In this document: positions 21,553 through 62,671 of the stretch, piece by piece
Position numbering within the stretch: the first letter of the stretch is position 1
Layout: each line of letters starts with the position of its first letter
Assembly (NCBI GenBank): GCA_007644065.1
Contig: VJWN01000011.1
Location: 186,001-250,000 of the forward strand
From: Margaritispora aquatica
Taxonomy: Eukaryota; Ascomycota; Leotiomycetes; Helotiales; Discinellaceae
Length of the DNA: 64,000 nucleotides
Direction: 5' to 3'
Made by a program: the position numbers and the translations under genes
Notes under the pieces: generated by a model
Seen by the model: only the letters and a program-made list of their open reading frames with translations
Told to the model about the DNA's origin: nothing
Databases searched by the model: none

Positions 21553-24500
21553 ATGGCCTCAAACAACCCAGGAGCTCTTGATCTTGATGATCGGGTTAGG
21601 TTCAACTTATCACCAATAGCAGTGGAGGATGAGAAGGAGGCCAGAGCTGTGGTAGAGGATATTGCAGCATTGAACGGTATATTCAGTGACGAACTGCATC
21701 AACGAGCCGAAGGACCCCGGGGTGACAGGGACATCAAAAGGCTGATTGCAAGCAATACTAACTTAAAAACAATTGCTAGCAATGCAACTCATAGGTAAGT
21801 AGTTCCAATTCAGGCTTAACAATCGTTGCTAAAACAAAAGCTGTTAGGCTGGCGGAGGATTTGAATGATGACCGCATCCACTTCGTCCTCGAGTGCATTC
21901 AAAATGCTGACGATAATGATTATGAAGATGGTGTCGAGCCGTTTATACGACTCTCCGTTTCACCGCAACAAATCCAGCTCGACTGCAATGAAATTGGGTT
22001 TAAGGAAGAACACGTTCGTGCGCTTTGCAGTGTAGGAGATAGCACTAAAGCAGCGAAGAAGGTCACGGAGGGCTACGTTGGGTGCATAGGCGAGAAGGGT
22101 ATCGGGTTCAAGTCTGTTTTCAAAGTTGCAGAACGTGTCTATGTCCATTCGCCTCCATTCTCTTTCATGTTCGACAAGAAACGAGAACTTGGCATGATTA
22201 CACCTCTCTGGGTTCCGGAAGGGGAAGTTCGATCCACTCGCAGACACGACTCACAAACAGCCATTCTCCTACTGCCAAGTGCACGAGAAACCTACGCTGA
22301 GCTATCGCAGGATTTTCTATCTATTCCCTCTACCCTACTGTTATTTCTCAGAAAGCTCAGAAAGCTAGAGTTGGCTATATCTAACCTTCATCCTGGAGCC
22401 CAACCTACTTCGATCCACAAGACTCTAACATCCGAGATGCTAGATAGCGGGAGAGTTGTCATTTTGACAGAAGAGGACCTAGGTGCTTCAAAGATCGTCA
22501 AGAAAGAAAAGTACTACATTTTTGAACAAGTTCAAAAAATTGCGCCCACAATTGAGGAGCGTCGAAAAGGGGTCGCAAAAACTGAGCTAGCTCTTGCTTT
22601 CCCCGTGGATCCATCTGGGCAGCCTTGCGACTCAACCCAGCCTGTACATGCTTTTCTCCCCATTCGAGACTTTGGCTTCAAAGTGAGAATAGATTCCTGT
22701 GTCATAGATCTGACTAACTTTTGTAACAGTTTCTCATTCAAGCAGATTTCATCACGGCCTCAAGTCGACAAGATGTGGACCAGAAAAATCAATGGAACGA
22801 GGCATTGCGAAATTACGTTCATCTTATCTTCAAGAATGCTGTTGTTGAATTTGTCAATTCATCAAATCATGAGCTCCGTTACACGTGGATGAGATTTTTG
22901 CCTACCGGTGTAACTCATCCATTCTGGAAGCCAATCCAGGACTCTATTCTACAAGTCATGCAGCGAAGCACAGTCCTCGAATCTCGAGCAGGAACGATCC
23001 ACTGCCCCTTTGAGTTGTATCGCCTCCCAAATTATGCAAAAGATCGCTCTGGATGTCCGGTCGTCGGCACCGACTCGAACTACTTGTCGTCAAAATACAT
23101 GACCCAAGACCAAGATCTCTTGAAGAATTTAAATGTTGATTTTTGTTCAAAGGACTGGGTGTTAAAACAGCTTTACCTTCTTGGGGATACTGTCAAGTCA
23201 AAGCCTGTATGTTGGCACGAAGATCTCGCAGGCTCCCTTCTCAGTATTACGTCGACAGCAGCATGGTCCAACTTGGGTAGCCACATCAAACAGCTGCCAC
23301 TCATTCCCCTACAAGATGGTACTTGGGTCTCTGCGATTCAAATAACCAAAAACCCAATCTACTTTCGTCGAGACAATGGCATAATTGACGTGCCAGCCGA
23401 CATCAATCTTCGCCTTGTAGACTCTAGCTCTTCGGTAAATACCAATCGAGAACGATTGTTTAGGCTCTTTGGAGTTAAAGATTGTGACAAGACAGAGGTT
23501 GCTGGCTTGATTTTACAAAAACATCAGGACGGCGGATTTATACCTCGAATAGATGATGCGGTTGCTCACGTCCAGTATCTCTTTGGACTTGATCCTGCTA
23601 TCCGCGACAAGCTTGACTTGAAAAATTTGTGGCTCTATGATGAACAAGACAAACCTGCAAAAGCACAGGATCTCTATGTCCGACATACCAAGCTTAAAAA
23701 ATATAGTGCAGCCTCGATTTTTGGGTCCGATTTCCCTGTGAGATTTTTATCGACCAGGTACGACTCATGCACCACTATCAATGACCAGCACACAGAGCCT
23801 TCGTTGATACAATCCTGGCTGCAGAGGTCAACTGCCATAACGGACATACCCCGACTCACAAGGGCTGGGAAGATGTCCCAAGATTTTATATTCATCCTCA
23901 AGAAGTTTCCGAACGACGTTCTGCACATCCTAAAAGCACATTGGGCCACATATAAATCTTCTGTCGATTGTACGCAAGATGTTAAGGACAGGATTGCCAC
24001 TTGTGAGGTTCAAACATTTGATGGTGTAGCCTTCAAGCAACAGAAACTGAAAAACACGTTTGCGCCGGATCATACACTGAAGCAAATCAGCTCAGACTTA
24101 TGCAGCGAGTCGCGAGGGGTCTTCTTCCTATACCTTGAGTCTTACAAATCCTCCGATTGGAAATTTCTCAAAGTGTTCGAGGTAAAGTTTACCGCCGATC
24201 TCGTCTTCTACGATTGGTTTGTTAGGCAAACCCAATTCCGGGATCTATGTACTCTGCACAAATTCAAGGATCTTCTTCGGAGAATAGCGTCGCTCTCCAT
24301 AATTGACGAGAGTCGAAAATTATTTGTTTGGTGAGTTTGGCAAGATCTCACAGCATACCTCTCTATACATCAGCTGACAAATGAGCAGGAGAACATTTCG
24401 AGATGATAATGTTTTTATCCCAAATGGCATTGGAGGCAGTTGGGTTGGCTCTAAAAACTGCGTTTGGGGTGGTCCTAGTGGTTTTTCGACACAACACTCC

Positions 24501-27835: not shown

Positions 27836-30005
27836 TATGATTTGAGGAAATAAGCATAGCGTTTTTAAGCTATAGCATCACATAATTTCAGAAGTGAAAA
27901 CTTTGATTGGCGGTTGGAAAGCTATCTGACAAACCCATAGTGTGGCTGAGCAGACATGGCGTTTGGGAGCAATTGGGCAGTATAGCGGATGGGTCAGTAG
28001 AATATCCCACGTTGAGGGAAGCCCATTAGATTATAGGCTTGTTATAGACAATTTTATGTATCCTAGCGAATCTGCCGTGGAGAGTTGACAGTAGGGGTAA
28101 CTAGATTAAGTGCTTTTCATGATTTGTACTTTTTTCAAAATTGTTTTTGTTATATAGTAGTATCGCAATAAATCTTGAGGCGAAATTCATAGTTCAAATT
28201 GAGAATTCTAAACCTACTTGATAGTAGAGTTTAATAACATCCTAACAAGACATATCAGGACAGCTATTAGGTATAAGGATTATTATTACTTCCTATACTT
28301 TATTCTACCATGAAGTCTTTTGAAAGACAAGCTTTAACGTTTTCGAAAGCAGAATTTTGATAAACGAAAAAAAAAAAAAAACGACGCAGTATTGTAATAG
28401 CTTTTTATAATCAAACTCTGTTTTGGGGACCAAACTACTGGGCTACTGAGTATTTGCCCATAAAGCTATCTTCTAAGTACTTTTTTGAACTTTAATTAGT
28501 TACTAAAGTTATTTATGACCAAGTAAATAATAACTCGGCTAAGTAAATAAGTATTAGATAAGAACATTACGTAAAAGTAAATAAGTAAGATCTAACTATA
28601 CCGCAATATATATATAGATATATACAAATATGATAAGCCAAAACGATTTTTTTACTTAATAATAGGGTATTGGCGTTGTCGATATCGAAGTATTGAAATG
28701 GCGTAACGATCACCTTGAAATTCAAACTGAGTGTGTAGCAAATACTTGTCTCGATGTCTTAGGTCTTCGTATCCCCGCATTGGCGGTTCTGTTCGTTGAA
28801 GCCTATCTTTTGGTGTGGCTTGGCTATTTGTACCAAAATTCGAGGATTCAGAAAATATAGCTGGCAAGGACAAGCGATCTGATATGGAGCACGCAGAATT
28901 AGAGCATGAGGTAAGGTTTGGCGGAGCTTCTCTTTAGCTCCAAGACTTCTAAAGAATAGAATTAAATGATGGTTCGATATGGTTTGATTGCCAAGGAAAA
29001 TACTTATGTGGGTTTGCTATGGCATAAGGATGACCCAAAGGTGGATTCTGATATGATTCTCGAGAATTATTTGAAGCGCCAATAGTTGGCTAAAGGATTA
29101 TATGGAGGAGTGAGCTGACTAAGCTTCGTTCATGATTGAAATATCATGCTATCACATTTGCTCTCATACATATCACGTTTCATTCTCTATTTTTATGTTA
29201 ATATACCACTGAGATTACAATTATATCTTGCAATTCATTTCAGCACTCGTTGCATTTCAAATAGACCAGATGCCAAGACAATCTTTTTGGCGTGAATGAT
29301 ACACTTGTAGAGGATGAAGTCCGATTAGCGAGCCATATGACCCAAACACGAAATCGAAATGAAGATTCACTATATATTCACTAACCTATTTAGCTATCTA
29401 TTTATATCTCGCTCTTTCGAAGACAAAATATAAAGAACGACGCCTTTTAAAAATAAACGACATGAAGCTAGAGCAGTAAATCTCTTAGCTACCACAATCG
29501 ATGTGTGCTGAAGTGACCCCAAAAAGACTCAAGTCTCAACATTTGACACTGTTATTAAGAGGGGTCAGGGAAAGCATCAGTATATAATTCATCTTGATAA
29601 GGGTATGAATATAACTAGGCTATTATATATAAACACAGAAAATAAAGCACAAAACCGAAGCAATGAGTAGACCTGAGCTCGACCTAAGATATTCACATCA
29701 TTTACACTCAAATCAATGACAAACTTCTGACACTATGAACAACTCTAAGCTATTTTTGTAGTCTTTGAAACAGTCAAATTTTGTGATCTCAATATCATAT
29801 ACTGACTGCTTCACAATCGATATAAATAAAAATAACCTCCAAATCCTATCACCCACCGTGCTACGATAGACTAACAAACTTTCTACAGCAACAGGTAACC
29901 ATAATTTAGAAATCAAAATCTTCATCTATCACTTAGGTTATATTGTTTACTCATGGTTCATTTCCTCGTGGTGATTCTCGATTTCGGCAAAAAGCAAAAG
30001 CAAAA
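27836..30005. other. AT-rich stretch without a clear gene
   Basis: AT-rich DNA with a poly-A run near 28370 and TA-rich tracts, like decayed repeat DNA. The minus-strand frame at about 28921-28652 reads a normal-looking peptide (end QGDRYAISILRYRQRQ) but has no start and no family, and may be a gene fragment. A plus-strand frame at about 28970-29085 (start MMVRYGLIAKENTYVG) is similar. Nothing else seen. Confidence 0.5.
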
Positions 30006-30124
30006 ACATACAACAGTAGGTATTCGCTGGTGGTCACCCACCCAACTACTAATCTACCGATCTGAGGCTTGTGTATGGCAGAGCGGACGGGATGCCCAAT
30101 TCTCCTCAGTCTATGGTCGTATGT
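30006..30124 (-). rRNA. 5S ribosomal RNA (intact, 119 nt)
   Basis: Minus strand begins ACATACGACCATAGACTGAG and ends CTACTGTTGTATGT. The ends pair (ACATAC with GTATGT), and the length of 119 is that of fungal 5S. The internal promoter region (about GTAGTTGGGTGGGTGACCAC) is intact and a T-run lies directly after the 3' end as Pol III terminator. Filamentous ascomycetes carry 5S genes dispersed singly, as here. It sits on the same strand as the NLR gene, with its 5' end 11 bases past that gene's stop codon. Confidence 0.95.
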
Positions 30125-30135
30125 GACAGATTCCG

Positions 30136-33100
30136 TCAGATTTGGATAGAAGACCTCGATAACTTGGACATCTCAGATCCAATTAGCACCGTTGCCAGGT
30201 TCTTAACAAGACTGGCAATATCCCCCTTCACAATGACAATCAACTGAGCGATGGGCTGATGCTCTGAAAACAGATCGATCATGATTCGGACCCTTACCTT
30301 GTGGGAACATACAATCACTCGGTATCCTTTGGCGGCTCCAGCGCGCACAATCGAGACATCCGTCACGATATGAACCTCTCCAAAATTCCAGGTGTTTCGG
30401 CCCTACAAGGAAGAAGAAGGATCGTGCTCTTCCCGGCGTTGCTTTCTGAACCTTAAGCAGATTTTCCAACACATCCACGAGCTCAAGACACTTGTCGTAA
30501 TCCGAGCCTGCCTCTGCAGCTGTGAGATCGCCCTCAGCACGACCCAACTCACAAGTAAATCTGAGCTCGAGACAAGCATCCTGTCTCTCTAGGTCAAACT
30601 TCCGCAACCCGTTGGACCTGAATTGCTTAAGTAGCACCAAGTTCTCGTCGCAATACGAGATGCTATCGTTCCATTGCTTCCTTTTGGCTGCTTGGTTCAT
30701 CAGTATCCCCAGAACTTGAGTTTTAGTGATCACGATTTCCTCGGCATCGATGCGGCTGAGCTCGCCCTTGTTCACAAGCTCCAGAAACCAACTGTAGAGT
30801 TTCTGGCAGCTGTTCCATTGGCCTGCCTCCGATGCTGCGTGGAATTCGTACGTGAATTTAAGCAGAAGGTCTCGATCATTCTGCACGTAAAGGAAGTCGA
30901 CATCACTCAAGGTAATTGGTGCGGCTTTCAAAGCAGCACTATCACCCAAATCCTTCAGGAGTGTCTTGACTGATTTAAGATCGTGGGTTGCATACGCAAG
31001 CTTCAAGTCCTGGGTGATCTGGGACTGGCGAAGATTAGTTTCGAGGAATTCTCTGATCCGCTGCAAGGGCGTGGCATGTGAGGCGTAGTCTGTAAACATG
31101 CCATCTCGGCAAAGAGTATCCAACCTTTGCAACAGAGACCACACTTCAGTCACATCACCGGTCATCCACGCGCCATGCGCACCATTCAAGAGTCTGGCTT
31201 CCTCTCCATATTTGGCCGGGTTATCATATACCTGTGCAACCCATGCGGATTCTGGACTTGAGTTACTTTCACACATCTGCCACCATGTGCGTGGGAATTC
31301 TTTGCACTTATTTCTATCCATCGTGGCAGCTTGACTAGCTGGAGAGGGCAGTTGGATCTTGGGAAACGACTTCGGCTGTTTTGAAGCGTTCTTGGGCCGT
31401 GCATTTTCAGAAGTGTCACCACTGTCACCCATTCTCGACTGAGTTAAACAGTATAGCCCCAAGTACTTTTTGTGTTTCTCATCCAAAGTCCTTTTTTTAA
31501 CCTCCAGTGCGTTAAATATATCGATGGGTGCTGAGACCTTAGTTAGGATAGCTCGCATCGAGTCGATATGTTGTTCTGCCTCCTCGAAACGATATCCGTC
31601 TACTGCCCCTGTGATCATTGTTTCGTGAAGCTCCAAGGATTTTATCCATTCGCCCGTGTTGTATGATGTCTCGAGAGCTTTGTTGAGTTTGATTTCGGCC
31701 TTTGTCATTGCCACAGGAATTGTCTGGAGGTTCCGTGCATTAAAACCGAACATTCTTTTGTATTGGCTGACGCTGATTTCTCTGGACTGTTCTAGTAGCT
31801 TTTCTACGATAGCATGTTCTTTAGGGATCATTGTGCGTTGCTGGCACTTCTCGGTACTCCGGGCTCCTGTGGCTAGAAGCTCTGCATTGCACATTCCGCT
31901 CAGAAGGAGACTAATGGCACAAACAAGGTCGTGTATGTCCGGAAGCTTTGTATCAGGATATTGTGTATTTTGGATAACGCTGGTCATAGTGCGAAAGTCA
32001 TCCATCACGGCAGATAGCAAGTTAAGACGTTCTAGGTTTGGGAGAGGTGAGCCAGTCTGATCGAGTTTCTCACACAGTTCATCCTTGAGCGCCATTAAAG
32101 CTGGCCAGCTTTTCTGGCCCCCGCTGGGATGTTGTTCTAGAGGCAAAGCGAAAAGCTGCACCAAGAGTAAACCGTCCTGGTATACGTAAGTATCCAAGGT
32201 GAGATTTTGGTGGTCCAGCGATGCAAGGAGACGAAAACCAATGGATGAAAGCTCGAAAACGTGCTCAGAAGTCTGACGACTATTTTCGAGAGTTGAAACG
32301 ATATGGACCAGAACCAGGACGAAAAATTGCATGTATCGCTCTTTTTCCACGACTTCACCAAATTTGGCAGAGAGTAGCCTGAGTACTTTAAACATCTGTT
32401 CCTCAGGCATGAGACGTGTTGTCAGCGGTAGAGCACTTAGTAGAGCTGGGCTGCTCAGAGCTATAATGAGTCTCAAAGGCCAATCATTAACGGGTATGTC
32501 AGTCAAACAGAAGTTGATGGACGAGACCATATTTGCGAATCCAATCCTGAAATCCTGCTTCTGTTCGACGAACAGGCAGTGTAGAGATTCTAGTGCGAAG
32601 CCAAAGATAGTCCTCAATTTTATTCTTTTCGCGGGCGTCAAGAAGGCAGCGAGATACGCCCGTCCCACGATTGTGAGCAAAGGGTGTACACGGAAGCAAG
32701 TTTTGTCATTATCAATGCGGACATAACCACGATCCATGGCAAACGATAGCCAAGCCAAACACCATGGATTGGAGGGCTCAAAGCAGCCTACCATGGGGAA
32801 ATCCTGGCGCAGCGATACATTTGCCGTAGTGGAGAACATAATTTGCAGCGTAGCCTCCGTGTTTGCTACATCCCAGAATATGGCTAAGATACAGATGAAG
32901 AAGAAATTACCACGGAGGAGGTTGATGGAAGCGTGGCGGATTTCTTGGGCAAAACGAGAGGCACCAAAATCTACCTGCTTCAGGTCGGCCTCAGATTCAA
33001 AAAGGCCGTGGTGAAGACGTTGGTAGAAGTGCCTCCATTCTATCTTGAGTGCTCGCTGGAGCGGCAGAACACTTATCAGGGCAGAAGGATTGCATCCCAG

Positions 33101-35125
33101 CAACTGAACGATGCTTACCAAGTGATCGATATCCTCATAGGCCCATTGCTGGGTGTCCTCGCCACACTTCTGCAGTACTTGGTAGGAGAGGTCGATAGCG
33201 CTGGCGACGTCCAATCCTTCTAGCTCATATAGAAGAGGCACAAATGGGCGACTAATCTGTGTTTCCAACCACTGTGCGTCGCCCCGTCTGGCAGAAAATA
33301 TTAGACGGGTTTTCTGCTCTCTACTTGTTGGATTCTGGCTCAGGGTCACCAAGGATTCCATGAACCGGCATAACTCTACAGTTGCACTTTCGCTCAGTGG
33401 TGCGACTAGATGTGATGGATGTCTCGTGAGGTGAATATCCAGGCTATCGAAGATGAGGATCGACTCTATGCCCAAGAGTATCTCAGCCACAATAGCATCG
33501 ATCATGGCGTTGTCGTAAGATTGAAGCGAATGAGAAAGTATAAACCGATGATCAGGAGCCTTCACTTGTGATAGCAACTGGCGGAGAATGGCGCGAGATA
33601 AATCCCCACACGATGTGATTGAGTCCTTGGAAAAATCAATTGCCACAACTGCGTCAACAAAGTTGGTTGATTTCCAGAGCGAGATGGCACGTTTCAGGAA
33701 AAGGGATTTCCCAACTCCAGCCATTCCGTGTAAATATACTGCGTAGGTTTGCAGCAACTGCTTTTCAAGTCTTAAGAGAGCCATATCACGGCCGTAGAGC
33801 CCTTCCATAACCTGAGTAGAAGGGGACACGCTCTTGATGGCCGTGGCCATGGACGGGTGGAGGATAGGCTCATTTGACGGTACGAGTACACACCGCAGCC
33901 CAGATCCATATGTGATGGCAACAAAACTATCCTGGCACTGCTGCTGCCGTTGATGTCTTGCTGGCCGCGTGGGATTCATTCGCAACGTCCCACGGCCCAC
34001 CGCCGCTGCCTCAGAAAAGGAGCCCCCCCGAATGAGCAAGGCATCGTAGAAGGCTTGAAGGAACATAGCGGCTGCGCTGGCAGCTATTTGGAACGACATA
34101 CCAAGAACACCTTTCACGCCGTGCTTCAAGAACTGTTGAGCAATATTGGCATCGTCACCCAGGGTTGCATTTGCCGATTCGCATGCGTTCAAGACGACGA
34201 AAGGAATTTTGTATTTCTCCAGCACTTGAGCAACAGTCCGTCCTGGTACTGACCAGAAGCCATCAGATTTCGGATCGCTGAAGGAAAGCATGCCGTACTT
34301 CTTCTGCTTCCCCTTCCGAGTTACAATCGTTCCATGCATATCAAAGTGCACTAGATGAAAGTAGCCGTGCTCGCCGTGGATTTTCCTCGCGCGCTCCAAG
34401 TGATCCTCAAACGCCGCGAAGGTTCCTGGTCGGACGATCTCGAGACGGATCTGAACAGGGCTGCTTGTATTTGCCAGCATCTTCTGGACCTTGATGAGTG
34501 TATCTGTTGCGAGGAATGGGTTGACTTCTTCTCCCATCGACGACGCCTGCGTCATGTCCCGTGCCACTACCACCAGCACGTTGAGTGTGAGAGTGCCATC
34601 AGGTTGTTTCCAGCAGTCAAACCTGTCAGGGTGCGACTGCTGATAATTTTCAGTTGGCGACGAAACAGATCGTTCGACTACGATCGCTAATCTTGTGTGG
34701 CCCCAAAGATCCGGGTTTTCCAGCAATTCCCAGAACAGCCGGTGGATGGTGTCGACCGAACACCCTCCATCGGCACTGTTGTGACACACCTCGATGGACA
34801 GCAAGATTGAATCCAGGCTGTACGGTGCATCTTCAAAGTCGGAGGCCAGAATGTGCCTGAGGGAGAGCTGACGCAGTAAATCTTCGGGATAGCGCTCCAA
34901 CAGCAGCTCAGCCTCCCTAGCTCGATCTAAGGAAAAAGGCAAGCTTCTGACGTATTTTTCGAGATACCATCGACAGGTCGATCTCTGATCTGAGTCGAGA
35001 GGATCTCTCACGGGAACATCACGCTTTACGACTACGCCGTTCTTGGCTACTTCTACTAACCACCCTTCGCCTTCGGTGGATTGTCGTGCAACGAGCCGGA
35101 GGGCCACTTTGTTCTGTTTAGACAT
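30136..35125 (-). CDS. NLR (STAND NTPase) with N-terminal CHAT caspase-like protease
   Basis: Two exons, 35125-30452 and 30402-30136, about 1646 residues. The start MSKQNKVALRLV at 35125 (context ATTACCATG) is preferred; the frame is open to another ATG at 35257. Residues about 200-400 form a CHAT domain: HFDMHG (catalytic His about 264) and VVLNACES (catalytic Cys about 315), followed by GVKGVLGMSFQI. A P-loop NTPase follows: GMAGVGKS (467-474), Walker B SILIFDSLD (about 555) and the arginine-bearing RLIFSARRGD; then a winged-helix-like FRVHPLLTIVGRAYL (about 810). The remaining half is helical, probably a TPR-like sensor. The 49-base intron (30451-30403) has a weak GTTCAG donor but a strong polypyrimidine-TAG acceptor; it restores a coding frame ending SSIQI. 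Known from family: CHAT is a caspase-like protease, and NLRs oligomerise on ligand. Inferred: it cleaves the gasdermin encoded head-to-head at 35532. Confidence 0.9.
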
Positions 35126-35531
35126 GGTAATTTTGTGGCTCTTGAGATGGTGAAGTTTCTGTATACTCCCCATGAAAGGGACCAGAGATTGTATTGTGCT
35201 TTTATGACAGTTGTCGTTAGTTGTTGGTGGTGATAGATGTGGCGCATCACCCTGCATATAAGCCGTTTCACAAGATATTGTACTTAGGAGAGCGCAACTT
35301 AAATAGGAAGGTTCAGCTCAGATAGAAGGGCTCAGTTCGAATAGGGGGGCGCAGCTCAAACAAACAGGAGGGCGCAGTTCAAACAGGAGTGTGCAGTGTC
35401 CTGAAAACGACTCGTGGTAGACCATCATATACATATATGATTTCGGCAGCGCCGCATCTGACCTGGAATCTGACCTTACTCTCTTCAACTCCTTACTCTT
35501 CGAATTCCTTACTCTCTTCAATTCTGCTCCA
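35126..35531. promoter_or_regulatory. Shared divergent promoter of the NLR and gasdermin genes
   Basis: The 406 bases between the two start codons must contain both promoters. It holds a degenerate tandem repeat (35289-35395) and, close to the gasdermin start, repeats of a CTTACTCTCTTCAA-like pyrimidine-rich element (35470-35525) that may be the initiator tract. No TATA box was confirmed. Confidence 0.55.
35289..35395. repeat. Degenerate tandem repeat in the divergent promoter
   Basis: About five to six units of roughly 19-22 bases with a common core like GGGCGCAGTTCAAACAGGA; the last two are the most alike, the first ones (GAGCGCAACTTAAATAGGA, GGTTCAGCTCAGATAGAA) more diverged. Confidence 0.75.
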
Positions 35532-36485
35532 ATGTCTCAATCAACTTTCTTCCTTCTAGACCGACCAATTCCAGCGGTCGAGATAGAAAGCTTTTTATGC
35601 CGGGTAGTGGTCTCGGTAACATCACCTCTCGCTCAATTCGCGCCCTTCTCACTTCCGGGGACGCCGAGCCACAATACTGACGATATCATACCCTCAATCC
35701 TTCCAGAACCATCACTGTCGGTCCCAACCAAAACGTTTCGAGCAGCTGCGCGGGGACGAGGCATGGCCGTGAACCTCACCAACCTCGCCAGCGTCAATGT
35801 CTCGCGTAGCGAGGAGCAAAGCCGGACGCTGGAAAGTGAGAGCATGAAGTGCTACGAGCTGCGACATCACAAGCACTACTTCCAAGAGCTCATGAAGAAT
35901 GACGACTACTCGCGAGATGTCCGCACGCTGCTTAGGGAAATCCGGCCCCGTCATGCCTATCTCGTGACGGGCTTTTACACCACGACCAAAAGTGCCTGGA
36001 AGATCGATGGAAGTCGAAATCGCGAAGCAGCACTTAAAGTTACTCTACCCATCTCGGCAGCAGTTCCCGCTCCTGTAGGAGGGCTCGTCGACATTGGTGG
36101 TGGTTTGTCGGGCTCCAGCGCATCCCAGCGGAGCGATGAGAGATTTGTGGCCGAGGAGGAGATTTTCGCAGTCTCGTACTCAATTGTGCAGTTTTCCTAC
36201 AGGCTATTAGCAACGAGTAAATTTTTCATCGCGACACCGAGCATTGGCCCGCCTAAGCGGGCGAAAGATCATCACCTTACCCTAGGGCGTGACGAAGAGG
36301 AGGATGAGGGCGAGGAGGCGGGAGAGGAGATTGATTGGGACTCCGATGACGCCGTAGAACATTTCAAGGCCGGCTCAATCCAGACGAATCAAGATATTGA
36401 CATGGAAGTCATCATTTCTGGGATGGAGACTGATGACATACCGCTGACTGCCGGAGACGGGGAAGTGTTTGTTATGTATGAGTAG
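35532..36485 (+). CDS. Gasdermin-like pore-forming protein (HET-Q1/RCD-1 type)
   Basis: Intron-less, 317 residues. The start MSQSTFFLLDRPIP resembles fungal gasdermin N-termini. The core segment around 115-160 (YFQELMKNDDYSRDVRTLL, then HAYLVTGFYTTTKSAWKI) and the following amphipathic, Gly-rich part (LPISAAVPAPVGGLVDIGGG) fit the family, as does the late EEEIFAVSYSIVQF. Residues 253-273 form an acidic linker (DEEEDEGEEAGEEIDW), followed by a tail of about 44 residues. Known: in HET-Q1 a protease removes a short C-terminal tail, freeing the N-terminal domain to permeabilise the plasma membrane and kill the cell. Inferred here: the partner protease is the divergently transcribed CHAT-NLR. The frame is intact, with no stop or frameshift. 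Assignment is from pattern recognition, not alignment. Confidence 0.8.
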   Translation: MSQSTFFLLDRPIPAVEIESFLCRVVVSVTSPLAQFAPFSLPGTPSHNTDDIIPSILPEPSLSVPTKTFRAAARGRGMAVNLTNLASVNVSRSEEQSRTLESESMKCYELRHHKHYFQELMKNDDYSRDVRTLLREIRPRHAYLVTGFYTTTKSAWKIDGSRNREAALKVTLPISAAVPAPVGGLVDIGGGLSGSSASQRSDERFVAEEEIFAVSYSIVQFSYRLLATSKFFIATPSIGPPKRAKDHHLTLGRDEEEDEGEEAGEEIDWDSDDAVEHFKAGSIQTNQDIDMEVIISGMETDDIPLTAGDGEVFVMYE

Positions 36486-36725
36486 GACTAGCTTAGTCTT
36501 CCGGGCGACAAGATTCGCGGAATTATACACCGATGTAACTGCATTTTGTTAATAATTGTCAACGGCAGAATATCTCTCCTCTCACCTTTCATGTCACTCC
36601 AGGTTTGCGGTTTTGTCATCGACCAAACTATCCAGATGTCAGGGACTATGATCTCTTAATCCCGATCTCTGAGCAAGTGAGCGGAAAAGCCTGTATGCGA
36701 TGTTTTTGAGAATCTGGTTCTCCAA

Positions 36726-36784
36726 TCTTGAATCCTAGAGTCAGTTTGAAAGCCATCTTCAAAACCCGACTCTAGGATTCAAGA
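36726..36784. repeat. Perfect 17-bp inverted repeat (hairpin)
   Basis: Arms TCTTGAATCCTAGAGTC (36726-36742) and its exact complement (36768-36784) are separated by 25 bases. It lies 241 bases past the gasdermin stop. It could be an RNA hairpin, or the trace of a small element. Confidence 0.9.
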
Positions 36785-36845
36785 TATTATGCTTCGACAT
36801 CCCAAGATTGTTCTGATGCTTGAGTAACTTGAGAGTCAAGAAATA

Positions 36846-36877
36846 GCCCAATTCTCCTCAGTCTATGGTCGTATGTG
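36846..36877 (-). pseudogene. 5S rRNA fragment, 5' end
   Basis: Thirty-two bases identical to the first part of the intact 5S gene (30094-30125, including one flanking base). The remaining 5S sequence is absent here. Confidence 0.9.
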
Positions 36878-36930: not shown

Positions 36931-36948
36931 ACGGGATGCCCAATTCTC
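36931..36948 (-). pseudogene. Second 5S rRNA fragment
   Basis: Eighteen bases (ACGGGATGCCCAATTCTC on the plus strand) identical to the 5S segment overlapping that of the preceding fragment; separate from it by about 53 unrelated bases. Chance is unlikely given the close neighbour. Confidence 0.65.
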
Positions 36949-37402
36949 TTCGATCCAACCACCAGACCACGAGATCTCTAAAGCCGAGAGCTGAGAGCCG
37001 AGAGCTCAGATATGAGCTGTCGGCATAGGCATGGGCATGGGTGTCACATGCGTAGAAGAGATGGAGGACTCAAATAAATCAAGCTGATTAAGCCAGAGGC
37101 ACGCTCTGGAGGGGATTCTAACTGCATGAAATTGCCCCATATCTTGTCAGTTAGGGGTCACGTGCTTTTATGCATGATATTCGGTTATTTTGATTCTCTT
37201 CTTAATCTCACTGCATTCCTTATGATATGAGAGCATTCCTTATGAAGTGCTGATCTATCTGTATATATAGAGCTCTCTATTGCGGCAGATGCTCTTCAGA
37301 CTCTTCAATCCTATCTATTTCACCTACTGCTTCCTCACGTGATTCACCCCCTATCATCCCTCATATCTACCCCTATTATTGAATTCCCCAGTAAACGTTG
37401 CT

Positions 37403-53932: not shown

Positions 53933-56607
53933 CTTGTCGACTCCACATTCCCTATGGCATCAGGACACAATTAAGTCGCATATAAAACGACGACAACCAT
54001 AATGCTCGAGAGTTTCTACGCACAAAAACGCGCTGTTCAACTATTTGGTTTCAATGACGAGAACTGAACTGAAGAAAGTCTAAAGGAATTAACGAACGAT
54101 AGTACAAAAGCACAGGACACTCGAGAGAGGTTCAACTGTTGAGAACAAGCTTTTCGCTTCTGAAGTTCTGATATCCCATTCGATTAATGGAATTCTTTCT
54201 CATTACATGAAGGACTTTGGTAAGATACAAAGAGCGGTTCGAACGAAGGTGGTCGACTTCATCGCACATGCATGCTATGTTACCTGATATAGTAGCGATG
54301 TCTTGAACGGGAATATTGAGAAGATATTTGCCTATGCAGCTCGCATACTGAATTTTCACATGGGATTTGTCTTTTCTTTGCTGAAGTTGAATTTTGCAAG
54401 GAGTGGTAGGAATACTAATCACGGTCTTTGATAATGAGAAGAAGCACAAATAGAGTCAAATCTCCATTCGCGTTAAAAATTCCTCATGATGTGAGATGAA
54501 TTTGTATTCAACCATCCTTCCTTCTCACAACATTCTCCTTACAAGCTTCTCACGTTATTATTATCATTATTATTATTAGCTTTAGGAGCCGAGTCCGGAT
54601 CGAAGATTAAAAATATCTCGGAGCTGGAAGCGAGAATAGGCAAAAATACACGTGATATTGAATTTCGAGCGGCCGATGGAACTCAGGGCAAAGGCAATCT
54701 CCGAAATTCATCTCCAGTCGTCCAGAAGCGTCCACCCACTCCACCGCTCCTGGCACTCCGAACTCCACCAAGTCGGCACCAGTCTGCACCAAGACCAAAT
54801 CGGCTTCAGATGCCCCGCCGCCGTCCGTCCCCCGTCCAGATCTTCAGCCTTTCCTCGTTCTGCGCGTTTCAGATTGATGAATTTCGACAAAAGTGGAGAG
54901 TCACAAGGGATCATCTCAAACCTTGTGCCTAAGATTAAAGGCTCACACGGCGATCAGGCCACAACAAGTTCAATGTTTTGATCAACATTGAGGCTTATTC
55001 AACACCAAAGCAACACCAAAGCAACACCAAAGCAACACCAATGCCATTTGTATCGTGTTTACATTACTCGGTATAGTATTGTCCATTGACCTCGAAGACA
55101 TACCCGACCTTGCGCTTGTTCGAAGCTGTTTCCTCCTGGGAGATCTGCTGATATCATTCTTGAGACCAAGACTAGACTAGACACTTGAGACTTGACCGAA
55201 TTGATGTCGCAAAGCGCAATATATACTCCCTACTATAGGTATTCTTCATAGCAACCTAGTCTATGAGTGGCTGGCAAACATCAAGCTTGAATCCCATATT
55301 TTTAACGACTTTCGCATACGATTGAACATCAATGTCTTGTTGCATCAACGATTGTTGAAGTATTATACTCACATACTTGCAACGAGTGCCAGTCATTAGC
55401 AATAGCAAGACGACATCCCTCTTTCTCCAGTGGATAATGCATAGTGCATAGTCATTAATACCGGCTCCGCAAAACCATCCGAAGCCATCAACTCTCTCCT
55501 CCTTGTCCTTTGTTTTCGAAGCATGCGCGCAATCGAATGTCGAATCTCCTTTATTGAATAAATCCCTTTCTGCTCCCGGTTTTGTCACAACTTTGCAGAC
55601 GGGAGGCGTAAAGCGATCGCCGAGTCAAGCTCCATCGTTGATTTGCTGGCTGCTCCTGGACTTCTCCCGGCTTGGACTTTCATTTGCCCTTTGCCCATAT
55701 TTGCCTTCATTTTCTGAGGGCGCCAATTTGTGAACGAATAAGGGAACGAACCTGGAGCCCACAATAATACAAAAAGTATTTTTAGATAGGTCTCGGTGAC
55801 TGGCTGGTTTGGACAAGCTGACACTCTTTTAGTCGATTCGACCCTTGCCCATAGCCCATCACCAACACCAATACCAACACCGCTGTCGAGTTCCAGTACG
55901 GAGTGCCATTATTCTACTGATTTCAGTGTTCGTCCAGCAGCCGAAGCGTCTTCATCCCATCCAACTCGAAGAGTGCTCTCTCAGCATTTGTCTCACCTTC
56001 ACCATCACCATCATTGTCCCATTCGAATATCTGCGGGTTGAGTTGACACTCCCGACAAGTGTTCAGAATTGTATGCACTCAGGACCTGAACAGCCACCCT
56101 TCTAGACAACTCTCTGCGACTGCGGCAACATCTCTTCTCTTCCCACCAACCACAGACAATTTCCGATCTTTTGGGGGCTATTCGTGTTCATTCAATATTC
56201 TTCGAGGGCCATTGTGAGCCAGTGTTTATTGCGATACATCCAATTTGTTTTGAATCTTCAGCGTCACACATTCTTTGAATTGGCTGTACAATATTGCAAG
56301 GCGCGACATCTGGTTCACTTCTCAGGGCGCTTAACAAAAGGTCTGTCATCGAATCAGCCTGTGCCGAACCGCCGCATAGTCACAGGTAACTACTCCTCTC
56401 TCATTCTGTCCTTTGAATCTCTATCCTGCACAATCGAAACGAAAAGAGGTCGCATGCTCGAAGGTTGAGGGAAACAACTATTCGCATACCGCTCGTAGCA
56501 GGCTACATTACCGGTTGTGTCCGTTCCAGATCTGCGAACACAAGGGCAGATCATGTTCGCTGGTTAATTCAACACTCACATTCATTGCGCCCTGCTTTTG
56601 TAACAAA
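53933..56607. other. Gene-free stretch, leader of the phosphatase gene
   Basis: A minus-strand frame at 54132-54449 and others have no family marks. The right part is the probable 5' UTR of the phosphatase gene, where the phosphatase frame is open upstream of its chosen ATG. An 11-base tandem repeat lies at 55000-55040. Confidence 0.5.
55000..55040. repeat. Tandem repeat, 11-bp unit
   Basis: About 3.7 perfect copies of CAACACCAAAG. Confidence 0.95.
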
Positions 56608-58932
56608 ATGGCACCATGGTCTTGTCCAAACGCTAACAGTCGAACAATAAAGAGGTCCACAAGTTTTGCAGCACTATCATCCAAGGATCAAAATACCGGA
56701 TCATATCCACTACCAACGAGAAGGTCGAGGCAAGTTGTGGAAGGAGTTTCGGCGCAGGCTGCCGTCTCGAAAGATATAGATTCACAACAGGACCACGCGA
56801 GAATGCCCTCGACAGCAGGTCCAAGGATGTACGAGAACCATATACCGTCTTTCATGTCTGTATATGGTATGGATACCGCACCAACTGAAAACTCCAGCTT
56901 GGGTCACCCACCAAAATTACACTCGACATACATTGAAGAGGAAGAAGAGCGGTCATTGGATGGTAATGAGAAGGATAGTGAGCATACACAGATACACTTA
57001 CATCAACACCGAGAAAGTACGTCGACACAGACCTCGGATTCCACTGATTCCTCGCCCACCACGACTATATCAACGGTTGACTCTTCTTCACTCTCAGATC
57101 CTTCCCCAAGCTCCTCACCTGAGTCGCCCATCACCCTCATTCCACTATCTTCGTTTACCGGGTCATCATTTGGCTTAGACTCCTTCCGTGGTTTGAAGAT
57201 GATTGATACAAGTCCTTCGCGATTAGCAATGAGCACCGAAAGACCCATGACATCTCCTTCACCGAGAAAGTTCAAGAACCCAAAGAGTCTTGCCTTGAAT
57301 TTGAACCCAAGCATAGAGGCATTCGAGTCTTCGGAACCTGCATCCCCTTCGTTCATCAAACCTCCAACTTTGACAGGCAGGAGGAAACCGAGCCTGTTAA
57401 GTTTAAATACTGGAGCAGCAAATACACTTTCTCTTTCAAAAGAAGCTCTTGCGTCTCCTTCGGTACCTACTATGCTTCAAAGACGAGGACTAAAACACTC
57501 AATATCTTCTCCTCAGATGTTAGCAACACCAAGCTTTGGGCCCAGCGGAGGAATGACTTTGGGAGAACGAAAGCCGACTCTAGGACTATCCAGGTTAAAG
57601 GAGTCCAATCTTGGTATGAAAACCTTCACAATCAACGAGGACGTTCCAGAGGTACCGGCTGTCACTCAAATGGCAACAAGAGTACCAGGTGTAGCAGTTG
57701 GAGGTGATAGTTTTGATCGACCACATTCCGGAGAAGATGCCAAATCTCCATCCTACCCTGAGGGTCCAATATTGATGCATGAGCCTAGCGTCCATCTCTA
57801 TCTAGAACCAAAGTTGGAGGAAGCCTTGGAATTTGATGTTATTATTAATGTGGCGAGAGAGGTCAAGAATCCATTCAAGGTGAAAGAGGAAGAAGAAGCA
57901 AGGTCTGAAGCCCAAGCTGTTACAGCACAGAAGTCATCAGACGAACAGCAGGAATTGAGTGACATCCCACCCGATACCGCTGTATCCATGATGTCCTTTA
58001 GAACGGCCTTTGAGACTCAGCCATCAGGATCCACAGAATCTTCACCAACGACACCAAAGCCAAATGTAGAAAAGAAATCTCCAGAATACATACACGTGCC
58101 ATGGGATCACAATACCGATGTCAAGGACGAACTCTGGGGCCTATGCGAGCTCATCGATGCAAGAACTAAAGACGGAAAGAGGGTGTTGGTCCATTGTCAA
58201 CAAGGTGCAAGTAGATCAGCCACCCTGATTATCGCGTACCATATGTATAAGAACCAAGAGCTTGGGCCGAACGAGGCATATTCTCAAGCACAGGCCAAGT
58301 CCCGATGGGTGAACCCTAACATGTCATTATTGTTCTCTTTGAACGACTTCAAAAAGGTCATTGACCAGAAGAAAGCAGAAAAGGCCAATACCATCCGAAA
58401 ACCAGTGGTGAAGCACAGGCCAACGTTATCAGCCGATGGTCTTGACATACCCGGTACTCCCTCGCGGGCGCGTGGAAATTCAACACCTAGCACGTCGGCA
58501 CGAGACACTGCATTGGCAACTTCGAATGCACGATTGGAGCCGACGGCTTATCCACCACCAGCAGTCCATGAAGAACCAGCAGCTCCCAGGCTAGGTGGCT
58601 TTGACTTCGGCTTTTCTAGCCTGACCATCAACGACGAACCTTCGCATAGTGGGATCAGTCCTTGGGGTGACTTGATGTCACCTCGGCTGACAGAAATGAC
58701 CGACAACCCTATTCAAAGTTTCGCACAAAGCTTCTCCCGAAGCTTTGCAACAGCTCCAGATGTACCACCAACACCTGCTCTTTTCTCCCCACGAGCTATG
58801 GAATTTCCCCGGTCGAGTTTCTTTCAACCAGCACCTCCCCCGAGGGTAGCTCTTGTTGTCGAGGAAGACCCCAGGAGTCCGCCAACCAAAGGAGAGGCGC
58901 CGATCATTCGATCAATAGACGATTTCCTGTAA
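56608..58932 (+). CDS. Dual-specificity protein phosphatase, MAP-kinase-phosphatase-like (Msg5-type)
   Basis: Intron-less. ATG at 56608 (context AACAAAATGGCACC) gives 774 residues; the frame is open upstream, but those residues look like leader. The first 390 residues are Ser/Thr/Pro-rich and disordered, with docking-like conserved islands (RSTSFAALSS, PSPRKFKNPKSLALNL, RGLKHSISSPQML). The catalytic domain spans about 405-600: FDVIINVAREVKNPF, then a low-complexity insertion of about 70 residues, then YIHVPWDHNT and the P-loop HCQQGASRS (529-537; nucleophile Cys530, Arg536), and AYSQAQAKSRWVNPNMSLL. All catalytic residues are present. Family members dephosphorylate Tyr and Thr of MAP kinases; yeast Msg5 acts on the pheromone and cell-wall pathways. 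The C-terminus is disordered. Confidence 0.88.
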   Translation: MAPWSCPNANSRTIKRSTSFAALSSKDQNTGSYPLPTRRSRQVVEGVSAQAAVSKDIDSQQDHARMPSTAGPRMYENHIPSFMSVYGMDTAPTENSSLGHPPKLHSTYIEEEEERSLDGNEKDSEHTQIHLHQHRESTSTQTSDSTDSSPTTTISTVDSSSLSDPSPSSSPESPITLIPLSSFTGSSFGLDSFRGLKMIDTSPSRLAMSTERPMTSPSPRKFKNPKSLALNLNPSIEAFESSEPASPSFIKPPTLTGRRKPSLLSLNTGAANTLSLSKEALASPSVPTMLQRRGLKHSISSPQMLATPSFGPSGGMTLGERKPTLGLSRLKESNLGMKTFTINEDVPEVPAVTQMATRVPGVAVGGDSFDRPHSGEDAKSPSYPEGPILMHEPSVHLYLEPKLEEALEFDVIINVAREVKNPFKVKEEEEARSEAQAVTAQKSSDEQQELSDIPPDTAVSMMSFRTAFETQPSGSTESSPTTPKPNVEKKSPEYIHVPWDHNTDVKDELWGLCELIDARTKDGKRVLVHCQQGASRSATLIIAYHMYKNQELGPNEAYSQAQAKSRWVNPNMSLLFSLNDFKKVIDQKKAEKANTIRKPVVKHRPTLSADGLDIPGTPSRARGNSTPSTSARDTALATSNARLEPTAYPPPAVHEEPAAPRLGGFDFGFSSLTINDEPSHSGISPWGDLMSPRLTEMTDNPIQSFAQSFSRSFATAPDVPPTPALFSPRAMEFPRSSFFQPAPPPRVALVVEEDPRSPPTKGEAPIIRSIDDFL

Positions 58933-61292: not shown

Positions 61293-62671
61293 CTACGAGC
61301 TCTTCTTCAACCTCGCCTCCTTCTTCGCCTTCTCCTTAGCGGCCTTCTCCCGTCGCTGAATCACGCCCTCGGCTCCAATGCCACCAAACACCAGTCCCAC
61401 GCCCATCCACTGCTTGCCGCCAAGGGTGTGTCCGAACGCGAAGACGGAGAGGATCATGGTGAGCATCTTCCTTGTTACTGTGATGGTGACGAGGAGGAGG
61501 GAGGAGAAGGTCGAGAGCGTGTAGACTTCGTTATAATTAGCACTGCATGTTGTGAGAGTGGAAGGGAGGATATCTTACAGATGAACACCTGTCCGATAGC
61601 ACCACACATAGCGAATCCTAGCACATCAAACCAAACACCTGGGTGACGAGCCATAAATGCCAATGCCTCCTTCAATTCACCACCACCACCTCTAACATCC
61701 ATACCCAAATATTGCCCCAATCCCGTCTGCACTAGATATGGACTCAATGCCAAATACGCAAACGTGAGAAGGGTGCTCATGATGTTGTTTGCGCACATCA
61801 TCTGGGGTCCAGTATATGGCTGGAAAGAGGTGAAGATCCAATCTTGCGTGGTATTCGTGAGGCCATCAAAAAGCAGATTAATGCCCAGGAGGAGAAGTCC
61901 CCAGGTAGCGTTCTTATCCGGATTAAGGGCCGACTTAGAGGGTTTTTTGGACCCAGAGCCCGCATGAAGTGTGAACACCGCCACGCCTGAAGTGACAGCC
62001 AACACGACCAGGTACTTGTACAGCGGGTACTTCTTCTGAAACAGCGTGATGTGGAGGAACATGACGGGAAGGAGCTTGCACGACTTTGCGAGGATGAACG
62101 TCACGTAGTCGATGTGGGCGAGCGAGGCATAGCCAAACGGCGAAGCCAGCGACGTCGTGACGGCCACCAGGAACAAGGGCACGAAGATGCGGCGGTTGGG
62201 GAAGATGGGCTTGGGTGTTGCGGCGCCCGCGGACTCGTAGCTCAGGTACATGTAGCCCACCAGGGCGGCGAAGACGGATTGGAAGGTGTTGAGGAAGACG
62301 GGGAATTTGAAGAGTTCGGGTTTGGAGGCGGGGCCGTAGGGAGTGGTCGTCAGGCGTTCTTGGAGGAGTGCCCATGTTATGCTGCGATCGAAGTTAGCTT
62401 GTGCCGTGGCTATGGTATGTTATGGGAGCTGGGAGACGTACAATGAACCGTATATGCCTAGCACTGCGAAGGCTAATTGCAATGCGCCGGCTTCCTTCTT
62501 CTCTTCCATGTCTTTAACTGGACTCCCTTTCGCATGGCCATTGCTGGCCTCTTTCATGGCCTTATCCAAATTCCTAGGACTCAGAGTCGATGCGCCGTTC
62601 GTCTCGTTCTTGTTGAAGTATTCCGAAGAGGGTTCTCGCCTCAATGGCGTGGTTTGTTTCGTTCGCGCCAT
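61293..62671 (-). CDS. hut1: UDP-galactose/nucleotide-sugar transporter homologue HUT1 (SLC35B1 type)
   Basis: Three exons, 62671-62442, 62381-61579 and 61525-61293, join in consistent phase to give 421 residues, the usual HUT1 length. The first splice restores YGSFITWALLQERLT; the second restores QVFIFYTLSTFSSLLLVTIT, followed by VTRKMLTMILSVFAFGH and the C-terminal KQWMGVGLVFGG. Multiple hydrophobic segments (such as FVPLFLVAVTTSLASPFGYA and YLVVLAVTSGVAVFTL) fit a ten-helix carrier. The protein ends with a Lys-rich tail (KEKAKKEARLKKSS), matching the dilysine-type ER retrieval signal of this family. Members sit in the ER membrane and exchange UDP-sugars or ATP. The third exon's acceptor (AACGAAG) lies unusually close to a CTAAT branch-like site. 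Confidence 0.92.

Follow-up and report, generated by a model that had tools for sequence, protein, structure and literature searches.

A divergent CHAT-NLR and gasdermin gene pair bordered by 5S rRNA sequence in Margaritispora aquatica, a candidate cell-death module

Two divergent genes encode a CHAT-NLR and a gasdermin-like protein

The window analyzed here is a 64,000-nucleotide stretch of the Margaritispora aquatica genome (assembly GCA_007644065.1, contig VJWN01000011.1, positions 186,001 to 250,000), and positions are counted from its first letter unless another contig is named. It contains two genes, one encoding a NOD-like receptor with a CHAT protease domain (CHAT-NLR) and the other a gasdermin-like protein, that are divergent, head to head, and form a module spanning 30203-36485. 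The CHAT-NLR gene (30203..35125, minus strand) is one open frame of 1640 codons from an ATG at 35125 to a TAA at 30203, and the gasdermin gene (35532..36485, plus strand) is one open frame of 317 codons ending in TAG. The intergenic region (35126..35531) holds short tandem repeats of 16-19 bp and separates the divergent start codons by 406 bp, which places the gasdermin and protease genes within 10 kb of each other. An earlier note made from the sequence alone had described an NLR frame with CHAT His and Cys motifs and Walker A and B motifs, set head to head with an intact 317-residue gasdermin-like protein; the gene structures, profiles, and structural matches given below bear out each of these points. 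The start of the module had been placed at 30136, a position that belongs to a small unrelated open reading frame (30136-30402); the true start is 30203.

The stop-to-stop frame of the NLR covers 30203-35317 on the minus strand. The ATG at 35125 was chosen (context ACCATG), and an alternative in-frame ATG lies upstream at 35257. The chance of 1640 open codons is about 5e-40 for this base composition and independent bases. No intron or frameshift need be assumed because the C terminus agrees with those of the closer full-length relatives. Pfam places the CHAT protease domain (PF12770) at residues 148-387 (33965..34684, minus strand) with an E value of 3.6e-14 and 53.3 bits against a curated cut-off of 24. 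A search of the organism's own genome recovered this domain and found CHAT at two further places, and the CHAT part had no matches among Protein Data Bank (PDB) sequences. Residue invariance was scored in 32 sequences, this NLR plus 31 of the 34 homologues found among the 7,997 candidates with the most shared words; P0049 (949 aa) and the weak matches P0070 and P0071 were left out. The His motif VHFDMHG (residues 259-265; 34331..34351, minus strand) and the Cys motif LNACES (residues 312-317; 34175..34192, minus strand) are both conserved in this alignment, with H260, D262, H264, and C315 invariant in 32 of 32. One histidine of the former motif is the residue we presume to be catalytic.

A STAND-type P-loop NTPase core follows at residues ~443-605 (33311..33799, minus strand). 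The best of six NTPase profiles, nSTAND6, scores 27.6 bits against a cut-off of 27.7, 0.1 bit short, and the other five likewise fall under their Pfam cut-offs. The assignment draws on these sub-cut-off profiles, an invariant P-loop, and fold matches from a structure search of the model. Walker A is GMAGVGKS (residues 467-474; 33704-33727, minus strand), and a Walker B-like strand is SILIFDSLD (residues 555-563; 33437-33463, minus strand). G467, G472, and K473 are invariant (32/32), and D or E occupies position 560 in all 32 sequences. The NTPase, helical, and winged-helix parts occur in the order typical of NLRs. The C-terminal region, residues ~830-1640 (30206..32638, minus strand), is mostly helical in the model and is proposed to be a sensor superhelix. 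The AF2 (AlphaFold2) model of residues 441-1640 has a mean predicted local distance difference test score (pLDDT) of 78, and its top Foldseek match is a TPR STAND protein. No Pfam repeat profile of the TPR, ANK, or WD40 type matches this region. An NLR profile run against PDB sequences returned 17 rows up to E 1, mainly designed helical proteins, and these were not used. The cysteine-rich C-terminal end (residues 1590-1640; 30206..30358, minus strand) is common to closer relatives, differs in P0043, P0044, P0045, P0046, and P0051, and is absent from the distant relatives, P0056 onward. The NLR is up to 63% identical to its relatives.

The gasdermin fold was identified from structure. Residues 1-249 (35532..36278, plus strand) form a predicted pore-forming domain with two long beta hairpins (66-102 and 154-206), and the fold search gave a strong match to the gasdermin pore-forming N-terminal fold. 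RCD-1 is the closest solved fold, and the alignment stops at residue 256 of RCD-1-1, residue 249 of the model. The profile half of the check suggested in the earlier note failed, with no gasdermin match for the 317-residue protein in Pfam or NCBIfam, and Pfam likewise found none in any of the 38 family members; the identification comes from the fold search only, and with that structural match it stands. Against PDB sequences the single protein gave one chance row (E 0.22) and the 38-row profile none. The protein is up to 70% identical to relatives.

The pore-forming domain leads into a conserved hinge, PKRAKDHHLTLG (residues 241-252; 36252..36287, plus strand), which is proposed as a cleavage or recognition region. 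Its mean majority fraction is 0.88, compared to 0.34-0.70 for seven other segments, in the 32 family members that remain when six fragments are excluded. The strict motif occurs in 41 of 56 gasdermin homologues; among the 15 that miss it, P0011 and P0085 stop short of this part and the majority of the rest have a looser form. The hinge is followed by a short C-terminal segment of the kind found in fungal gasdermins, an acidic disordered tail (residues 253-317; 36288..36482, plus strand) proposed to be inhibitory. The model has pLDDT <50 across residues 251-317, and D and E account for 24 of the final 67 residues. In the same 32 members the tail beyond residue 250 is 42-67 residues long, on average 32% acidic and 5% basic.

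The pairing recurs in relatives, as the earlier note had proposed to check. Among 56 homologues of the gasdermin and 34 of the NLR, six gasdermin/NLR pairs lie on contigs of identical size in both lists. In Cadophora malorum the two genes have consecutive locus tags, IFR04_012657 and IFR04_012658 (P0003/P0043). The other five pairs are P0013/P0042 (6,595-bp contig), P0025/P0053 (14,092 bp), P0077/P0055 (9,975 bp), P0018/P0050 (39,541 bp), and P0022/P0051 from Dactylonectria estremocensis (1,523,266 bp). Three of these contigs are so short that the genes must be close neighbors. Co-location was judged from contig sizes and locus tags, and the head-to-head orientation was read in this window only. 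The divergence of the two genes is correlated (r 0.89 for 15 comparisons among six loci, P0055/P0077 excluded), a value that says little because species relatedness alone would produce it. In the 42.4-Mb genome each gene has one match, in a search that distant paralogues may escape. Gasdermin profile scans of genome contigs and viral contigs found no relative.

5S rRNA sequence at the module boundaries

A perfect 32-nt direct repeat derived from the 5S ribosomal RNA (rRNA) gene flanks the module on both sides. An intact 5S rRNA gene (30005..30124, minus strand; Rfam RF00001, 74.7 bits) supplies the left copy with its 5' end. The right copy is a 5S stub (36846..36876, minus strand) that matches 5S nt 1-31 exactly and then continues into unrelated sequence. 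A further 5S relic (nt 18-38, 20 of 21 identical; 36931..36951, minus strand) scores 37, and 500 shuffles scored 27 or less.

The 32-mer has 54 copies in the genome within three mismatches, compared to 41 for the middle of the 5S gene. Among the first 47 copies inspected, 37 are whole and 10 break off near nt 31; the remaining seven divide into three whole and four broken, and one additional broken copy brings the total to 15 stubs. For ten of the 15, a 5S copy on the same strand follows 2.5-13.8 kb downstream; the other five have no 5S partner. No stub has a 5S copy upstream of it or on the opposite strand within 15 kb. Such a downstream arrangement does not occur among the 42 other copies, and the number expected per stub under random placement is 0.007. 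A single downstream 5S gene on contig C34 is the partner of two of the ten stubs, which makes nine partner copies in all. Of these, one on contig C47 (L046, C47:1025850-1026150) starts no earlier than about nt 12, and so does an isolated copy on contig C48 (L047, C48:1680900-1681100). Together, the nt 1-31 stubs and the starts at about nt 12 define an overlap of roughly 20 bp. Sequence adjacent to the junction is related among seven pieces, and the window is 85-89% identical to three others over 61-69 nt, 5S part included. The interval interiors have no other similarity between the seven pieces at E 1e-3. The idea that the stretch after nt 31 is an eroded 5S remainder was dropped, as a 15-row consensus is unlike 5S nt 32-120, with 928 of 2000 shuffles doing equally well; hints of such a remainder were limited to two of ten junctions (7 and 3 of 500 shuffles as good).

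The cargo of the ten intervals was scanned in part, and clear immune-type cargo was found in three. These are the CHAT-NLR/gasdermin pair in this window, a HET-domain gene (L042:4029-5666, Pfam E 1.2e-32) between two 5S stubs on contig C34, and a PF17111 protein (8.3e-40; PigL_N in Pfam) on contig C48. PF17111 appears as Helo_like_N among NLR N-terminal domains (PMC9815663). The C34 interval beside the 5S gene (L025) has GTPase-like frames that are sub-cut-off or unmatched, the contig C11 interval has ankyrin-repeat and Clr5 frames, and one C47 interval (L044) has a sulfatase frame cut by the locus end. The one, one, and three frames scanned in C6 (L011), C47 (L033), and C7 (L037) had no Pfam match, and no frame was scanned in C18 (L018).

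HET domains are enriched near 5S sequence. Among the 150 HET matches listed, and compared to random places on the same contigs, the number of the 46 clustered 5S loci that have HET nearby is 6 at up to 2.5 kb (1.16 expected; 1 of 2000 placements as high), 8 at up to 5 kb (2.05 expected; 0 of 2000), and 14 at up to 10 kb (3.77 expected; 0 of 2000). The kinase control (101 places, from 139 matches after merging neighboring exons) gave 0 of 46 loci within 5 kb compared to 1.38 expected. NACHT matches lie near 2 of 46 loci compared to 0.28 expected, an excess not counted as support because one of the two is this NLR. The HET enrichment would fit attraction to 5S genes as well as a common accessory compartment, and does not tell the two apart. 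A literature search found no paper combining the 5S rRNA gene, the HET domain, and insertion in fungi.

Other features of the window lie near the module or farther away. Past the gasdermin gene there is an inverted repeat (36725-36785; 23 nt, 15-nt loop, 91% complementary). Its own two arms are the sole genome copy within three mismatches, and its candidacy as a dispersed repeat was dropped; weak microRNA rows at the hairpin were taken as chance. The stretch 28001-30000 is AT-rich, with 34-35% GC compared to 46% in the window. The frame at 21861-22892 has a weak, sub-cut-off Sacsin match (E 2.3e-05), and the three frames next to it, up to 27598, have no Pfam match; these may be one broken or intron-rich gene. 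A dual-specificity phosphatase frame (56413-58932, E 1.1e-23) and a UAA-family transporter frame (61475-62260, E 1.3e-22) are ordinary neighbors.

A proposed receptor-to-pore route and the possible origin of its setting

The pair is very probably a two-gene module for fungal regulated cell death in which the CHAT-NLR cuts its partner gasdermin. Computation shows the domains of both proteins, the invariance of the catalytic and P-loop residues, the fold of the gasdermin with its hinge and tail, the divergent pairing in this window, and the recurrence of the pair on other contigs; the steps from sensing to death are those we infer. The helical C-terminal region of the NLR would detect a cue, the STAND ATPase would oligomerize, and the N-terminal CHAT protease would become active. 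The protease would cut the gasdermin at or near the hinge and remove the acidic tail, and the freed pore-forming domain would oligomerize in the membrane and kill the cell. Release from the tail by a CHAT protease is suggested by analogy to the Podospora anserina CHAT/gasdermin pair and to HET-Q1/HET-Q2 (PMC12881547). RCD-1-1 is a protein of 257 residues that needs no cleavage (PMC12881547) and ends about where the tail starts; therefore, the tail is proposed to be the inhibitory part and the hinge to hold or adjoin the cut. It is improbable that the neighbor leaves the gasdermin uncut, with an RCD-1-like trigger by a divergent allele and a CHAT protease that acts on another substrate. RCD-1, the closest solved fold, is indeed activated by allele pairing without proteolysis (PMC12881547), but the 65-residue acidic tail after a conserved hinge is unlike RCD-1, and homologues of both genes share contigs elsewhere. 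Even less probable is a decaying or silent relic on a mobile insertion. The location, with an intact 5S gene on one side and a 5S stub on the other, the single genome match per gene, and the adjoining AT-rich stretch would suit a relic, whereas the fully open frames, the intact catalytic residues, and the identity to relatives in both proteins argue against decay. Read as a cell-death module, the pair shows in a clean form, both frames being open and matched once each in the genome, the shortest path that fungi have from receptor to pore; the receptor itself contains the protease, and the presumed substrate of the protease is encoded next door. With its conserved hinge, the gasdermin lends the proposed cleavage to a direct test.

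Either Starship remnants or another kind of element could account for the intervals. As to the 5S boundary alone, the chance is a little short of even that the interval is the eroded remnant of a 5S-targeting Starship of the Enterprise family whose captain is gone. Osiris Starships insert into 5S rDNA and fragment the 5S, and direct repeats >6 bp accompany 5S targeting in Starships (PMC12153272); the 32-nt 5S repeat likewise flanks the module at a target site, and fungal NLRs are said to travel on transposons (PMC9815663). However, the intervals measure 2.5-14 kb compared to ~20-700 kb for Starships, the repeat is ~20-31 bp compared to 2-12 (PMC12153272), and the downstream 5S copy is whole for nine of the ten stubs that have one. 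The captain domain DUF3435 has three genome matches (C23, C29, and C13), one of them sub-cut-off, and none on the contig of this window (C3) in a genome search that is blind across introns. We hold as possible, though doubtful, that the pair is cargo of a family of compact integrative cassettes that target the 5' end of 5S genes, leave a 31-nt stub plus, in most cases, a whole 5S gene, and carry self/non-self genes. The cargoes would then be the gasdermin pair, a HET-domain gene, a PF17111 protein, and ankyrin repeats, one each. Such cassettes would keep the whole target gene on one side, as islands in tRNA genes do, and immune modules of fungi would then use 5S genes as landing pads. Should the 5S boundary reflect mobility, the patchy way in which fungal cell-death genes have spread would gain a concrete mechanism.

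Comparison with known gasdermin systems

Bacterial gasdermins also occur with protease genes; these systems are prokaryotic and have a different sensor layout. In fungi, about 80% of gasdermin genes are clustered with protease genes, 19% have a CHAT protease within 10 kb, and dozens of these proteases are NLRs or NLR-like proteins with CHAT (PMC10197012). The earlier suggestion that the pairing may be undescribed does not hold, as NLRs with N-terminal CHAT adjoining gasdermin genes have been published (PMC10197012, PMC9815663). A CHAT protein is also encoded by the Aspergillus fumigatus hetB idiomorph and acts in incompatibility (PMC11138114). The pair resembles the fungal gasdermin/CHAT-NLR clusters (HET-Q2-like; Clave et al. 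2022, as given in reviews) in its neighboring genes, N-terminal CHAT, and gasdermin with a short C-terminal tail, and no functional difference is shown. The available review accounts do not mention the hinge motif, the cysteine-rich NLR end, or the 5S boundary, and the mobile-looking 5S setting is the less expected part of the locus. That setting is like Osiris Starships (PMC12153272) in the apparent insertion into a 5S gene with direct repeats, and unlike them in its far shorter length, longer repeat, a 5S gene that is in most cases whole on one side, and captain not found on the contig.

RCD-1 of Neurospora crassa is controlled by allele pairing and not by proteolysis (PMC12881547), and it ends about where the tail begins here. 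The pair resembles HET-Q1/HET-Q2 of Podospora anserina in combining a protease with a gasdermin that has a removable tail. HET-Q1 loses 40 residues after F238 (PMC10989679), compared to the ~65 proposed here. HET-Q2 is a subtilisin-like S8 protease and HET-Q1/HET-Q2 are idiomorphs at one locus, whereas this pair consists of a CHAT-NLR and a gasdermin encoded side by side.
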